From a bacterium (GTDB lineage Bacteria > Armatimonadota > Zipacnadia > Zipacnadales > UBA11051): a DNA stretch of 64,000 nucleotides. The position numbers were made by a program, and so were the translations under genes. Position 1 is the stretch's first letter. Every line of letters begins with the position of its first letter. Below, piece by piece: positions 1-57,032 of the stretch. The notes under the pieces were generated by a model, which worked only from the letters and a program-made list of their open reading frames with translations, did not search any database and had not been told where the DNA came from. Location of the stretch: NCBI GenBank assembly GCA_021372615.1, contig JAJFUB010000013.1, positions 1-64,000 of the forward strand, in the 5' to 3' direction.

Positions 1-24
1 GGAAGCCACCCTAACCACGCTCCA

Positions 25-22445: not shown

Positions 22446-23732
22446 CTACCTGTTCTGCGTCAGCATCAGCGGCCCGTACGTCGGCTCCCGCCGCTCCCAC
22501 CAAGCCACCCCACGGAAGGTTGCCCACGTCCACGTCCGCGGCAGGACACTCAGGTCCACGTCCGCGTGCACCAGCCGCTTGTCCGCCGCGAGGGCCAGGA
22601 CGTTGCCATCCGGCCCGAAGATCCCCGTGCCGTTGCCGTTGTTGCGCGAGATGACCATCCAGAGCTGGTTGTCCATGGCCCGTGTGCGCTGGATCGCCAG
22701 CCAGCGGTCCATCTCGAAGTCGCTGTCCATGCCCGTCCAGTAGCGCTGGGCGCGGTGATCGCCCATGATCGGCAGGCAGAGGATCTCAGCGCCCAGGCGG
22801 GCGGGGACGCGGGCCGACTCGAGCGCCGAGGAGTCCATGCAGATGTTCATGGTGATCTTCGCACCGTCCACTTCGTAGACCGGGAAGTCGTGGCCCGGGG
22901 TCACCCCCCACCACACCTCCAGCGGCGAGGCCAGGTGCACTTTGCGGTACTTCCCCACCAGCGCGCCGTCCTTGCCGACCAGCACCGCGCAGTTGTGCAC
23001 CATCTCCCTGTTCCGCTCCCATGCTGAGAAGCACAGGGCCATCCTGGCTTCGCGGGCCAACTCCTGGAAGGGCTCGATGGCCTTGCCGGGGATGGGGATC
23101 GCCTGCCTGGCGATCTCCTCGGGGTTGCTGGGCAGGCCGGCGCTCAGCATCACTTCGGGGAGGCAGAGCAGGTCCACATGCTGCTCGGCGCCGGAACGTG
23201 CGAGAGCGAGGTAGGCCTCGGTGTTGGTCCGGAAGTTGCGCTTGCCGCCCCCGAGCGGCCCGCCGGCGGCGCCCAGCCGCCAGCGTCGCGGTGCCGGTGG
23301 CTTCGCCTCCTGCACGCTCACTTCCGACCAGCGCAGTTCGCCCTGGCCAGCCCAAGCGATCAGCAGCCGCAGCAGCATCCCCTTGGCCCCCGGCGGGCGC
23401 TGGCAGTGGGCCTGGAAGATGAGGTCATCGCCGGACGTCTGCAGCGGTAGCAGCGGCTCCCACTTGACGCCCAGGGGCTCGAAGCCCTCCCACACGACGG
23501 CCGCATGGACATGATCCAGCCCCCAACGCAAGCCCAACAGCTTCACGCGCACTCGCACCGTGACCCATTCCGTCGGCGGCAGGGGGTAGGCCAGTTCCCA
23601 GCCGCCATAGCATCCCTCGCTGCCATTGGAGGTCACGACGAAGCCATCGCCCGCGCGCGTGACACCGGGCATGAGTTGCGGGCGCGGCGACCAGGGGCGA
23701 GCGTCGGTGTAGACCAGGGGCTTGGGGGGCAT
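22446..23732 (-). CDS. Carbon-nitrogen hydrolase (nitrilase superfamily) with N-terminal beta domain
   Basis: A 428-aa cytoplasmic protein. Residues 1-145 form a beta-sandwich resembling a carbohydrate-binding module. Residues 150-428 are the carbon-nitrogen hydrolase domain, with the triad Glu193 (LCLPEV), Lys264 (KYRKVHL) and Cys298 (MNICMD). The long open frame extends to 24212, but ATG 23732 with GGAGG (plus-strand 23742-23746) nine bases upstream is the real start. The upstream part overlaps the divergent oxidoreductase gene. The enzyme should hydrolyse an amide or nitrile. The sugar-binding-like N-terminus hints at an amidated or N-substituted sugar substrate, which is inference. Confidence 0.9.
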   Translation of the reverse strand: MPPKPLVYTDARPWSPRPQLMPGVTRAGDGFVVTSNGSEGCYGGWELAYPLPPTEWVTVRVRVKLLGLRWGLDHVHAAVVWEGFEPLGVKWEPLLPLQTSGDDLIFQAHCQRPPGAKGMLLRLLIAWAGQGELRWSEVSVQEAKPPAPRRWRLGAAGGPLGGGKRNFRTNTEAYLALARSGAEQHVDLLCLPEVMLSAGLPSNPEEIARQAIPIPGKAIEPFQELAREARMALCFSAWERNREMVHNCAVLVGKDGALVGKYRKVHLASPLEVWWGVTPGHDFPVYEVDGAKITMNICMDSSALESARVPARLGAEILCLPIMGDHRAQRYWTGMDSDFEMDRWLAIQRTRAMDNQLWMVISRNNGNGTGIFGPDGNVLALAADKRLVHADVDLSVLPRTWTWATFRGVAWWERREPTYGPLMLTQNR

Positions 23733-23865
23733 GGGACGGTTCCTCCGCGGAGTTTGCTGGCAGTTCCAGTCCGGTCGCGGGCGGACCTCCCGCGCCCGTT
23801 GGGCCGGCAGGAGCCGTCGAGCCACGAGGCGAAGGTGTGCCGGCCAACCGAAGGGAGCATGGGTC

Positions 23866-24876
23866 ATGTCGGAGCGTTGCGTCGTCGTCGGAGCCGGAGG
23901 CATCTCGAACGCCTGGTTCCCGCCGCTGAAGGCCGAAGAAGTCGAGATCGCCGCGGTCGTGGACCTGCAGCCCGAACGGGCGGCTGCGCAGATCGCCAGG
24001 TACGAGCTGGATTGCCCGGCCAGCGATAACCTGAAGGGGACGCTCAAGCGGGTCCGGCCTGACTTCGTGGTGGATCTGACCGTGCCCGAGGCGCACTGCG
24101 CGGTCACGTGCGCCGCCCTCCGTGCCGGCTGCCATGTTGTCAGTGAGAAGCCGATGGCGGCGAGCATGGCCCAGGCGCGGCGGATGGTGAGGACGGCCGA
24201 GGAGACGGGCAAGCTCTACATGGTGAGCCAGTCACGCCGGTGGGACGGGCGGCATGAGCGCGTGCGGCAGACCGTCGCTTCCGGTGAGATCGGGCAGGTC
24301 ACGACCATCAACTGCGACTTCTACCTGGGCGCCCACTTCGGCGGCTTCCGCGACGAGATGCCCAGCCCGCTGATCCTCGACATGGCCATCCACCACTTCG
24401 ACCTGTGCCGCTTCTTCACCAGGCTTGACCCCCTCGCCGTCTATGCCCGCGAGTTCAACCCCGTGGGCTCCTGGTACGCCGGGGACGTGGCGGCGAGCTG
24501 CATCTTCGAGATGACCAGCGGAGTCATCTTCACCTATCGGGGAAGTTGGTGCGCGGAGGGGTGCCATACGAGCTGGAACGGCAACTGGCGCATCATCGGC
24601 GACCAGGGGACGGTGCTGTACGAACAGGACCAGGAGCCGCATGGGCAGGCCGTCGCGGGCAACGAGGGCTTCAATCGTGCCCTGCGTGACCTCGCCCTCG
24701 CCCAGGCGGACGCCCCCGCGGCCGGCATGCACGGCGGCCTGTGCGAGATGCTGCGCTTCCTGCGGACCGGGAAGCAGCCCCAGACCGAGTGTCACGACAA
24801 CATCAAGTCGCTGGCCATGGTCTTCGGGGCGATCGAGAGCAGCAAACGGGGAAGACGGGTGGGGATCGCGGGGTAG
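23866..24876 (+). CDS. Gfo/Idh/MocA family oxidoreductase
   Basis: A 336-aa NAD(P)-dependent dehydrogenase. The N-terminal Rossmann motif reads VVVGAGGIS. The EKP motif appears in VSEKPMA near residue 92, and a candidate catalytic His lies in the DMAIHHFDLCR segment near residue 178, typical of the family. The open frame extends to 23722, but ATG 23866 is preceded by AAGGGAG at 23851-23857 and starts at the first beta strand. It is divergent from the nitrilase-like gene with 133 nt between them, so the two could be co-regulated in breakdown of the same sugar derivative. Confidence 0.93.
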   Translation: MSERCVVVGAGGISNAWFPPLKAEEVEIAAVVDLQPERAAAQIARYELDCPASDNLKGTLKRVRPDFVVDLTVPEAHCAVTCAALRAGCHVVSEKPMAASMAQARRMVRTAEETGKLYMVSQSRRWDGRHERVRQTVASGEIGQVTTINCDFYLGAHFGGFRDEMPSPLILDMAIHHFDLCRFFTRLDPLAVYAREFNPVGSWYAGDVAASCIFEMTSGVIFTYRGSWCAEGCHTSWNGNWRIIGDQGTVLYEQDQEPHGQAVAGNEGFNRALRDLALAQADAPAAGMHGGLCEMLRFLRTGKQPQTECHDNIKSLAMVFGAIESSKRGRRVGIAG

Positions 24877-24891: not shown

Positions 24892-24948
24892 GTGGGAGCG
24901 GTCACCGACCGCGACCGGCAAGCGATCGCGGTCGGTGACCGCTCCCAC
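24892..24948. repeat. Perfect 23-bp-stem palindrome between convergent genes
   Basis: Left arm 24892-24914 and right arm 24926-24948 are exact reverse complements (23 bp) around an 11-nt loop. The arms begin GTGGGAGCGG and end CCGCTCCCAC. It sits 15 nt after the oxidoreductase stop and 4 nt past the end of queC (24953) in a convergent gap, so it may work as a bidirectional terminator. The length and perfection are more typical of a mobile palindromic repeat. The GTGGGAGCG edge resembles the GTAGGAGCG edge of the element at 27359-27385. Confidence 0.75.
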
Positions 24949-52910: not shown

Positions 52911-55900
52911 ATGCGTACCACGGCACTCGTCCTCGCGTCTCTCGTCACGCTCTCCGCCAGCATCTGCGCGCAGCCGCGCCAGTCGCTGGACCTGGGTGGG
53001 GAGTGGGAGTTCGTCAAGGTCAAGAACCTTGCCGATGGCCCGCCGGCCGAAGGGTGGGCGAAGAAGACGGTCCCCGGCGTGATTGGCGGCGTGGACTACG
53101 AGCGCGCCTGGTTCCGCCGCGACTTCACCATCCCCGCTGCGATGCAGGGCAGCCGCATCACGATCCACTTCGGGGGCGTGAAGTGGAACAGCGTCGTGCG
53201 CGTGAACGGCCGGCAGGTCGGTGGGCACTATGGCGGCTACGAGCCCTTCACAGTGGACATCACGGACGTCGCTCGGGTCGGTGAAGCCAACCGTCTCGAG
53301 CTGGGCTGCCATGACTGGACCGGGGTGTTCGTTGACCATGAGACGGACTTCTCGGTGCTCAAGCAGCGCCCGGCCGATCCGCGCGACCTGCCCCGCGACA
53401 AGATACTCTCTCCCGTCGGCGGTCGCGTCTCCGACTACGGGCCCTGGGATCGCATCACGCTGCAGTCTCACCCCGCCATCTACGTCAGAGACCTGTTCAT
53501 CAAGCCTTCGGTGCGGCAGAAGAAGCTGACGGTGGAGTACGTACTGGCCAATGAGACGGCGGCGGCGACGACGGTGTCGCTGACTGCTGCCGCCGAGGGC
53601 TACACCGGGCTTGGCCCGCCGAGGCAGATCGGGGTTCCCGCAGGAGGTGAAGCCAAGGCCACAGTCGAGGCCGCTTGGGCTGACCCGCATCTGTGGTCGC
53701 CCGAGGACCCGTTCCGCTATGGCCTCATGACAGCCCTCTACCAGGACGGGAAACGCGTGGATGAGTTGCACACCCGCTTCGGCTTCCGCGAGTTCTGGGT
53801 CGAGGGTCCGCGCTTCTATCTCAACGGCTCACGCATCAACCTGCTCGCGACCTCGTGGTGGCCCGAGATCGGCGTGACGGCTGACTATGTGCGGCAGCGA
53901 CTGCAGGCCATCAAGCGTGCGAACTGCGTGGTCTTCCGCACCCACACCCAGCCGTGGCCGGAGGTCTGGTACGAGGTGGCCGATGAGGTCGGCCTGCTGA
54001 TGATCCCCGAAGGCCCGGTCTGGAACGACCGGGAGACGTACCGCATCAACGACCCGAAGTTCTGGGAGAACTACGCCACGGCGCTCAGGGCGATGGCGGA
54101 CCGCGACAAGAACAAGCCCTCGGTCATCATGTACAGCCTCGAGAATGAGTTCTACGGTGGGCGACTGAAGCAAGGGACGCCGGCGGCGCAGGAGCTGGCG
54201 CGCATGGGCCAACTGATGAAGCAGTGGGACCCGACGCGGCCGATCTACTACGAGTCCGATGGCGACCCGGGCGGCGTGGCGGACGCCGTCGGTCTGCACT
54301 ACCCACATGAGTACCCGGACTACACGCAGTGGCCCAACACTGCCTACTGGATGGACCAGCCACTGCTCAACAAGTTCTTTGCCCCGACCGATGAAGCCGC
54401 GAAGAACTGGGTGTGGGACCGCACGAAGCCCGTCTACATCGGCGAGTTCCTCTGGATCCCGTCGTCCGACCCGTCGTGGGATACGGTCTTCCACGGGGAT
54501 GAAGCCTACCTCGACTACCATCGCTATCATGTGCAGGCCAAGGCCGACTCGTGGCGCATGGCAATCCAGGCCTATCGGCACTATGAGGTCGGCGGCATCT
54601 CGCCCTGGACGATGGTGGAGGGTGGGGCGCTGGACGACAGCAACGCCATGTACGTCGCCCAGCAGTACGCCATGCAGCACTTGGCGGCCTACGTGCGCGA
54701 GTACGACCACAGCTTCTACAGCGAGGAGAAGGTCACGCGCACGGCCGACGTGTACAACGACATTCTGCAGTCGTCGAAGCTGACGGTCCAGTGGGCGCTC
54801 GTGGACGCCGCAGGGCGGGGTGTCGGCGAAGCCGACAGGAACCCCGCCGGGACGGTCCTCGACATGAAGCCCGGCGAGCGGAAGGAGATCACCTTCACCG
54901 TCCCACTGCCACAAGTGACGGAGCGCCGGCAGGTCGCCCTGCGTCTGCGCATCGAGCGCGAAGGCAAGGTCGTCTTCGAGGACACGAAGCCATGGTCCGT
55001 CTTCCCGCCGCTGAAGCTGCAGGCCACCGTACCGGTAGGGCTCTATGACCCGCCCGGGAAGCTGGCTCCGAAGCTACAGCGGGCCGGCCTGACCACAGAG
55101 AGCGTGGCCAATCTCGGCCGTGTGCCGCCGGGCGTGAAGCTGCTGATCGTGGCGCCCGGGGCGCTGCAGCAGGCCGAGCCGAAGCCGCCCCGGATCGGCG
55201 AGAAGCGGGAAGGATCGGGGCGCCTGCTGGACTATGTGCGCGGCGGCGGTCGGGTGCTCGCGTTGGAGCAGATGGACTACCCCCCTGGCGTGACGCCGGC
55301 GGCCCTGTCGGAGCATGCCTCGACCATGACCTTCCCCCAGGTGCCCAACCACCCGCTGCTGAGAGGGGTGCGGCCGGATGACCTCAAGTGGTGGCGGCCT
55401 GACAACCTCGTGAGCATGGCTGAGATCGTCCGCCCGACGCAGGGCGGCGCGCGGGCCATCGTCGTCTCCGGCAGCCGCACCGGCCTATCCCACGCACCGC
55501 TGCTGGAGTTGACGCTCGGGCGAGGCACGCTGGTGATGTCGCAGTTGCGGATCGGCGAACGGCTGGGCGTGGAGCCGGTTGCAGGGATCATCCTGCAGAA
55601 CGCGCTGGACTACCTCGCCGATGTCAACCCGAGTACGGTAGCAACTGCGCTATACTGCCAGGACCAGCAGACGCGCGAGGCTCTCCAGGGGCTGGGTCTG
55701 CAGGCGACGGACATCACCGCGGCGCCATCCCAGTCCGACTGGCCCGTGATCGCGCTGCTGGTCGCTTGCCACCCGATCACGGGGCTCGAGCCCTGCCTGC
55801 CACAACTGCAGGCGCTGCTGCAGCGCGGCGGGACGATCCTGCTGCACGGTCTGGAGCCGGGAGAACTGCACGAGTTGAGGAGCCTGCTGCCCACGGAAGT

Positions 55901-57032
55901 GAAGCTCGCGACCTACCATGGCGCTGCAACGAGACTGCCGGGGGCCGGGCCTCTTTCGGACTTCTTCGCCAACGAGGACCTCTACTGGCTGGGCCGGTCC
56001 ACGGCTGTGCACTCATGGGCGACACGGCCGCGCGCGACCGACATGACAAGTGCAGTGGTGTCGCGCGGGTCAGTGGGCAAGACAGCTACGGAGTACAGCC
56101 ACACAGCGATGACCGTGGCCGGGGCCTATGCCGCGGACCGCCCCGAAGGTGCCGTTCTACCCAGCGGCGGCAGCACGGCGACAGCGCATGTGGATATCCC
56201 GACGGACGGCGCTTACGTCCTCGGTGTTGTGGCAGGCGGCAGCATCGCGGCGGGCGAGTGGCCGGCTGGCAGTGTGCTCGTGGACGGCCAGACCGTCGGC
56301 GAGTTCGCCTGCCAGAAGGGAGAGTTCGACACCTATGCCCTTCCCGCCGACCTGAAGGCCGGGAAGCGCGAGGTGACGATCCGCTTCACCAACGACATGT
56401 ACGATGAGGCCAACAAGCAGGACCGCAATCTGCTCGTGAAGGCGTTGCTGGTTGCTCCGGACGACCGGGCTCGTGAAGTCACGTTCCTGACGTCGCCGCC
56501 GGCGCTGGCGGTGGTCAAGGCAGGGCCAGGGAGGGTCGTGCTCGACTGCATCAACTGGGATAGGACGCAGAGCAACACTGAGAAGGCCACGCGGTACGTC
56601 GCCGGTCTACTGACGGGGCTGGGAGCACCCTTCGAGCCGGTGGGGGCGGGGACGGTTCTGGACCTGAACAGCTTCACGCCACAGCCGGATCTGCCATGGT
56701 TCCGGCATGAGGGTGGCGGTCTGTACATGGGGGCCGCCGGCTACGTACGGGGTGACATCGAGTGCGCACGCAGCGGGCTATACGTGATGAGGGTGACGGC
56801 CCGTGGGACGCCGGCGGCGGGCCAGTTCCCGATCGTCGCGGTGGAGATGGACGGTCAGGAGGTCGGCAAGGTCGAACTGAAGAGCGACGGCTGGCGCACC
56901 TACCGACTGCCGATCAAGCTGGCCGAGGGCAAGCACGAGCTGAAGCTGACGTTCACCAACGACATCTACGAGCCACCCGAGGACACCAACCTGTGGATCG
57001 GGCGGGTGGAGGTGGGGGAAGGGCAGGACTGA
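52911..57032 (+). CDS. Large secreted GH2-like glycosidase with two C-terminal CBM modules
   Basis: A 1373-aa exported protein. ATG 52911 follows GAGGAGGAA, and the signal peptide ends in SICAQP near residue 21. Residues 25-330 form the GH2 sugar-binding and sandwich domains. Residues 330-600 are the TIM barrel with acid/base Glu413 (SLENEFYGG) and nucleophile Glu512 (YIGEFLW). Residues 610-720 are a beta domain that contains a palindrome-encoded insert at 635-646 (54814-54848). Residues 730-1030 are an amidotransferase-like region. Two related modules near 1060-1185 and 1260-1372 each carry a calcium-type xylan-binding signature (FTND, then D/N-rich loop, NL). The substrate is probably a beta-galactoside, glucuronide or xylan-type glycan. 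Confidence 0.87.
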   Translation: MRTTALVLASLVTLSASICAQPRQSLDLGGEWEFVKVKNLADGPPAEGWAKKTVPGVIGGVDYERAWFRRDFTIPAAMQGSRITIHFGGVKWNSVVRVNGRQVGGHYGGYEPFTVDITDVARVGEANRLELGCHDWTGVFVDHETDFSVLKQRPADPRDLPRDKILSPVGGRVSDYGPWDRITLQSHPAIYVRDLFIKPSVRQKKLTVEYVLANETAAATTVSLTAAAEGYTGLGPPRQIGVPAGGEAKATVEAAWADPHLWSPEDPFRYGLMTALYQDGKRVDELHTRFGFREFWVEGPRFYLNGSRINLLATSWWPEIGVTADYVRQRLQAIKRANCVVFRTHTQPWPEVWYEVADEVGLLMIPEGPVWNDRETYRINDPKFWENYATALRAMADRDKNKPSVIMYSLENEFYGGRLKQGTPAAQELARMGQLMKQWDPTRPIYYESDGDPGGVADAVGLHYPHEYPDYTQWPNTAYWMDQPLLNKFFAPTDEAAKNWVWDRTKPVYIGEFLWIPSSDPSWDTVFHGDEAYLDYHRYHVQAKADSWRMAIQAYRHYEVGGISPWTMVEGGALDDSNAMYVAQQYAMQHLAAYVREYDHSFYSEEKVTRTADVYNDILQSSKLTVQWALVDAAGRGVGEADRNPAGTVLDMKPGERKEITFTVPLPQVTERRQVALRLRIEREGKVVFEDTKPWSVFPPLKLQATVPVGLYDPPGKLAPKLQRAGLTTESVANLGRVPPGVKLLIVAPGALQQAEPKPPRIGEKREGSGRLLDYVRGGGRVLALEQMDYPPGVTPAALSEHASTMTFPQVPNHPLLRGVRPDDLKWWRPDNLVSMAEIVRPTQGGARAIVVSGSRTGLSHAPLLELTLGRGTLVMSQLRIGERLGVEPVAGIILQNALDYLADVNPSTVATALYCQDQQTREALQGLGLQATDITAAPSQSDWPVIALLVACHPITGLEPCLPQLQALLQRGGTILLHGLEPGELHELRSLLPTEVKLATYHGAATRLPGAGPLSDFFANEDLYWLGRSTAVHSWATRPRATDMTSAVVSRGSVGKTATEYSHTAMTVAGAYAADRPEGAVLPSGGSTATAHVDIPTDGAYVLGVVAGGSIAAGEWPAGSVLVDGQTVGEFACQKGEFDTYALPADLKAGKREVTIRFTNDMYDEANKQDRNLLVKALLVAPDDRAREVTFLTSPPALAVVKAGPGRVVLDCINWDRTQSNTEKATRYVAGLLTGLGAPFEPVGAGTVLDLNSFTPQPDLPWFRHEGGGLYMGAAGYVRGDIECARSGLYVMRVTARGTPAAGQFPIVAVEMDGQEVGKVELKSDGWRTYRLPIKLAEGKHELKLTFTNDIYEPPEDTNLWIGRVEVGEGQD
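54814..54848. repeat. Palindromic repeat family A inside the GH2 coding region
   Basis: This copy equals the reverse complement of positions 25-59 except for one base (29 identical bases from 54811, one mismatch, eight identical bases). The palindrome has outer arms GGCGGGGT and ACCCCGCC and inner arms GTCGGC and GCCGAC around GAA. The 35 bases keep the reading frame and encode about RGVGEADRNPA between two beta strands, an exposed loop. It therefore appears as an in-frame insertion tolerated by the enzyme. Confidence 0.85.

Follow-up and report, generated by a model that had tools for sequence, protein, structure and literature searches.

Palindromic DNA elements that encode part of a protein are known so far from Rickettsia and Wolbachia, where they lie in frame (PMC3767692), and from some genomes rich in repetitive extragenic palindromes (REPs). 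The Rickettsia palindromic elements (RPE-1 to RPE-7) are described as ~100–150 bp long (PMC3767692), and in R. conorii RPE-4 and RPE-6 end in CGTC (a TGTC/CCTC tag at one stem-loop end) (PMC3733652). REPs are built from a short flank and a bulged hairpin, with alternative self-complementary loops and head-to-head dimers, and in-frame intragenic REPs have already been found outside Rickettsia, in Opitutus terrae, Thauera, and Thioalkalivibrio (PMC3733652). Here we describe a 38-nt palindromic element from an environmental lineage of Zipacnadia, a class of Armatimonadota (PMC10290634), which we encountered in the first 64,000 nt of contig JAJFUB010000013.1 of assembly GCA_021372615.1 (hereafter the window). 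The element belongs to a dispersed palindromic family that occupies about 60 places in the genome, and some 15 to 19 of its copies are inside working protein genes, where each is read in frame and contributes a short, flexible peptide. In our view it is very probably a REP-like, non-autonomous element that multiplied in one Armatimonadota lineage and is kept in genes when it is in frame.

The preliminary description of the window had likened the element to those of Rickettsia, and this likeness holds for its behavior but not for family membership. Like the Rickettsia and Wolbachia elements, it is a palindrome dispersed between and inside genes, where it adds in-frame peptides to unrelated proteins whose homologues lack them. 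Unlike them, it is 38 nt long and GC-rich and comes from another phylum, not from Rickettsiales. Membership in the rickettsial elements was rejected because the sequence is different, the genome is that of an Armatimonadota bacterium, and there is no CGTC end: no base upstream of the stem is conserved as part of a CGTC (TGTC/CCTC) tag (≤0.19 bit per position), and a YGTC motif is present solely inside the stem. The element resembles GTAG REPs and REPINs, which go with the transposase RAYT (TnpA-REP), in several ways: it falls in the 20–40 nt size class, exists in dozens of copies, and forms a short hairpin that is bulged, has alternative self-complementary loops, and is flanked on one side by conserved bases; some copies are joined head to head as inverted dimers separated by a spacer, and the genome has Y1_Tnp genes. 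It differs in its YCAG flank, which is not a GTAG (or GYAG, GTGG) end. Among the papers listed by a literature search of incomplete coverage, none described such repeats in Armatimonadota, and we regard the element as a new family in this phylum, one set apart by its flank.

A bulged hairpin repeated across one genome

Two copies had been reported in the window, and both are there: one between genes at 25–62 on the (+) strand (covariance model score 67.8 bits), and one at 54811–54848 on the (−) strand within a GH2 gene (64.3 bits). The two 38-mers are identical at 37 of 38 bases in opposite orientation, with a repeat search the match reaches 42 nt at 95% (21–62 against 54811–54852), and the window holds no copies beyond these. 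The expectation that more would be found elsewhere in the genome (6.41 Mb, 171 contigs) was borne out. A 35-nt core pattern allowing ≤3 mismatches has 24 matches, and the inner core, with its tip left variable, has 34, as compared with 0 for the reversed pattern used as a control in the former search and 0 for the control in the latter. Using the copies to build a covariance model, we obtained 70 matches at E≤1, of which 63 distinct places were kept once opposite-strand duplicates and the weakest matches had been set aside; under strict filters the model matches this genome 52 times at E≤0.001, and 60 relatives not at all. Plasmid records contained no match to the element, and an Rfam search with one dimer locus returned nothing above the gathering score.

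The copies follow the consensus GGCGGGG-TCCC-YGTC...GAC(A)-CCCCGCC-CTG. Their outer stem (7 bp) is nearly invariant, and an unpaired 4-nt TCCC on one strand only forms a one-sided bulge (TCCC/GGGA), which is missing in four copies that are perfect palindromes. The 3′ CTG is present in 48/63 copies and reads as CAG on the opposite strand, where the base before it is C or T in 53/63 and G in just 6, so that the flank reads YCAG and is neither GTAG nor CGTC. The inner stem and loop are highly variable (GGC-TTC-GCC, AGG-CCTGCGG-CCT, ACGC-TGC-GCGT, and a long form with CCAGACTGCTGCGCAGTCTG), but the arms of the apical stem co-vary and base pairing is kept. Pair counting found four stem pairs altered on both sides, with 10 such cells as compared with 1.3 in shuffles, and none of 500 shuffles reached as high. 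As single-stranded DNA the copies fold far better than shuffled sequence (z −4.9 to −7.6); the copy at 54811–54848 folds at −16.7 kcal/mol (z −5.8). Six pairs of copies are head-to-head dimers, four of them with a 27-nt spacer.

The copy at 25–62 aligns with the right arm of the four complete dimers, and positions 1–62 as a whole align with their spacer plus right arm. Positions 1–24 (+) are, from the dimer alignment and the contig coordinates, a remnant of the 27-nt spacer, which is gcgggaagccaccctagccacgcttca in other copies. Since the window begins at the first base of its contig (C13), the left arm has been lost beyond the contig edge.

Contig ends also have to be weighed in judging whether the repeat could be an assembly or library artefact of a metagenome-assembled genome (MAG). 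The genome is split into 171 contigs, and several copies are at contig ends (C13, C43, C46, C89, and C118), but short-read assembly is expected to place repeats at contig ends. Moreover, the copies differ from one another with compensatory changes, and most are mid-contig, where the genes that contain or adjoin them are intact and keep the order seen among their homologues. An artefact is therefore extremely improbable.

Copies inside protein genes

A codon-usage test blind to frame was used to look for coding signal immediately to either side of each copy, on the same strand, and sixteen copies have it on both. In 14 of these a single frame runs across both flanks with no stop within the repeat, and the other two (C113 and C160) are in-frame C-terminal tails, after which the next gene follows. 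Among copies with coding signal on both flanks, no internal frameshift caused by a copy was found. On the assumption that two in three random insertions would shift the frame, the probability of finding 14/14 in frame is 2e-7, and the result fits survival of in-frame insertions alone. When the copy in an Mfd-like gene (C46), which is supported by homologues, and the copies in low-complexity linkers in C54 and C168 are added, the total comes to 19/63 copies in open reading frames (ORFs) or C-terminal tails. This share (~30%) sets the family apart from REPs, which are mostly intergenic, but it is far below what random landing would give in a genome assumed to be 85–90% coding, so copies are still depleted from genes.

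The remaining copies (~44/63) are intergenic. This majority, together with the strong hairpins and the regulatory roles known for REPs generally (PMC3733652), is what would be expected if the repeat were a cis-regulatory or structural site, such as an operator, a terminator, or an mRNA-stabilising hairpin, that occurs in genes incidentally. We consider that unlikely because at least 14 copies are within ORFs of unrelated genes on either strand, because the apical stem is free to vary, and because the copies are near-identical in one genome with none in 60 relatives.

Coding copies use all six reading frames, which argues that the repeat spreads at the DNA level. The common TTC-tip form is stop-free in all six, and most frames give small, Gly/Pro/Ser/Thr-rich peptides (QGGVSAQPTGTPP, GRGVGEADRDPA). 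TAC-tip copies would yield a TAG stop in the QGGVSA frame, and the coding TAC-tip copies at L119 (C60:4961) and L123 (C143:68691) are read in another frame. One might suppose that the match is a matter of protein-level convergence, in which the Gly/Pro-rich linkers of a GC-rich genome look alike and the DNA match is secondary; the genome is indeed ~68% GC in the regions fetched, and the C54 and C168 copies are within QGG/PN linkers. But unrelated peptides come from the six frames, the DNA is conserved in intergenic copies too, with compensatory stem changes, and the reversed pattern matched nothing, so we give convergence almost no weight. In the C54 case (L111 ~2400–2540; C54:18898), the coding copy is surrounded by tandem CCAGGGCGGGGC units, which are translated as NQGG(T/A)P repeats, and this low-complexity linker may have grown from the end of the element.

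Eleven host proteins (named from Pfam) are longer at the repeat than their homologues, and relatives do not have the repeat-encoded residues. The cleanest are a Pec_lyase-domain protein (C136) and a CBM_4_9 protein (C90), each with exactly +13 residues (39 nt). The gain is +12 in the C85 protein and ~+11 in the lactonase (C143), each relative to the closest homologue, ~+11 in GH123 (C62) and in the PfkB kinase (C94), +8 to +9 relative to most homologues in the P-type ATPase (C56), and about +6 to +8 in the C60 protein; the window's GH2 protein, treated below, is also one of the eleven. For the C34, C109, and C92 copies, which are outside this comparison, no homologue in the compared loci spans the site. 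The inserts in the Mfd-like protein (L131, C46:54450; +23 or more) and in the C24 protein (L126, C24:26685; +26) are about twice one element, and their surplus length may be a decayed second element. As with the intragenic GTAG REPs of Opitutus terrae (PMC3733652), peptide-encoding copies are in ORFs that include DNA repair genes (here the Mfd-like gene), although here the intragenic copies are single elements with another sequence in another phylum. These 11 comparisons point to yet another phylum in which proteins gain peptides from DNA repeats, and the near-identical inserts in unrelated enzymes offer a test set for how proteins tolerate such peptides.

The inserts could also be positively selected modules that alter host protein function rather than tolerated passengers. 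The QGGVSAQPTGTPP-type frame is the commonest, in 10/19 in-ORF or tail copies (nominal p 0.0004; ~0.002 when corrected for six frames), and secreted carbohydrate-active enzymes are among the hosts. However, tolerance alone would favor the same frame, the bias was not significant in the earlier 16-copy subset (p 0.05–0.06), the hosts are unrelated in function (P-type ATPase, PfkB kinase, Mfd-like protein, lactonase, GH123), and the inserts sit where homologue length varies. We judge selection for function to be very unlikely, and since the frame bias reaches significance in the larger copy set but is weak in the other, we do not use it as a main argument.

The copy in the GH2 gene

The window's host gene (52911–57032, (+) strand) was assigned from Pfam and homologues to a secreted GH2-type glycosidase of 1373 aa with CBM60 repeats; its Pfam domains are Glyco_hydro_2_N, Glyco_hydro_2, Glyco_hydro_2_C, and CBM60. 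The homologues are 58–62% identical, and the closest come from MAGs labelled Armatimonadetes or Candidatus Zipacnadia. Read on the (+) strand, the element at 54811–54848 encodes (A)GRGVGEADRNPA. As had been claimed, the frame is kept: codons 634–646 (54810–54848, (+) strand), which encode AGRGVGEADRNPA, contain no stop, and their assignment to the element is based on an alignment with 26 homologues and an AlphaFold model. The model spans residues 300–760 (mean pLDDT 68, mostly 80–90 in the C-terminal beta domain) and agrees with the earlier proposal of a loop, since the repeat-encoded residues fall in the loop between strands 622–631 and 647–652, in which residues 642–644 are of low confidence (pLDDT below 50).

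The homologues do not have these residues, but the clean insertion that had been anticipated was not what we found. The 13 repeat-encoded residues stand in place of ~7 in the 26 aligned homologues, and a clean 38-bp insertion was rejected on this net gain of +6. The alignment points instead to an insertion with loss of target sequence, or to later trimming, and on the same evidence the GH2 case is less clean than the best cases elsewhere in the genome.

Possible mobilization and other palindromes

As single-stranded DNA the element folds into the hairpin with its 7-bp GC stem, one-sided TCCC/GGGA bulge, variable apical stem, and CTG/CAG flank. If it is REP-like, a tyrosine transposase of the Y1/HUH, RAYT type acting in trans would recognize the hairpin and insert single copies or head-to-head dimers. 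In E. coli, TnpA-REP binds a tagged, bulged single-strand hairpin and cleaves at CT (PMC8266576). Most copies would then survive between genes, and those in genes would survive if the net insertion were a multiple of three and the peptide fell in a tolerant loop, linker, or terminus, with a probably near-neutral effect on the host protein.

Several observations weigh against this account. The net insertion length ranges from 18 to 39 nt, with longer inserts in two genes, and this spread does not define exact ends or a target duplication. The copy flanks lack a conserved GTAG, the tag typical of RAYT substrates. The genome encodes seven Y1_Tnp proteins, but when their loci were scanned with filters off, no recognizable copy was found beside any of them, in contrast to a REPtron; the best match (22 bits) belonged to another short palindrome. 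A Y1_Tnp gene flanked by copies may have escaped the scan where contigs break at repeats, and with none so flanked we can only infer the enzyme. A separate superfamily in Armatimonadota, neither GTAG- nor CGTC-tagged, adapted to survive in proteins with frames shaped toward harmless flexible peptides, and mobilized by an enzyme not yet recognized, would be the more novel reading, which we consider rather unlikely.

Of the seven Y1_Tnp (RAYT-like) genes (L055–L061), several are flanked by their own, different repeats, for example several tandem copies of an inverted-repeat unit at L056, CGTGTGCGGCGGGCCCC pairs at L059, and GCCAGCTTCCAGCTGGCA at L061. These differing repeats suggest that several REP families coexist in one genome. 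The window also contains a second palindrome family at 24892–24948, just downstream of the ORF at 23722–24876, in which GTGGGAGCGGTCACCGACCGCGAC is followed by a variable center of up to ~14 nt and then by its reverse complement. This family is found at ~20 distinct places in the genome, and its palindrome resembles a GTGG-tagged REP dimer.
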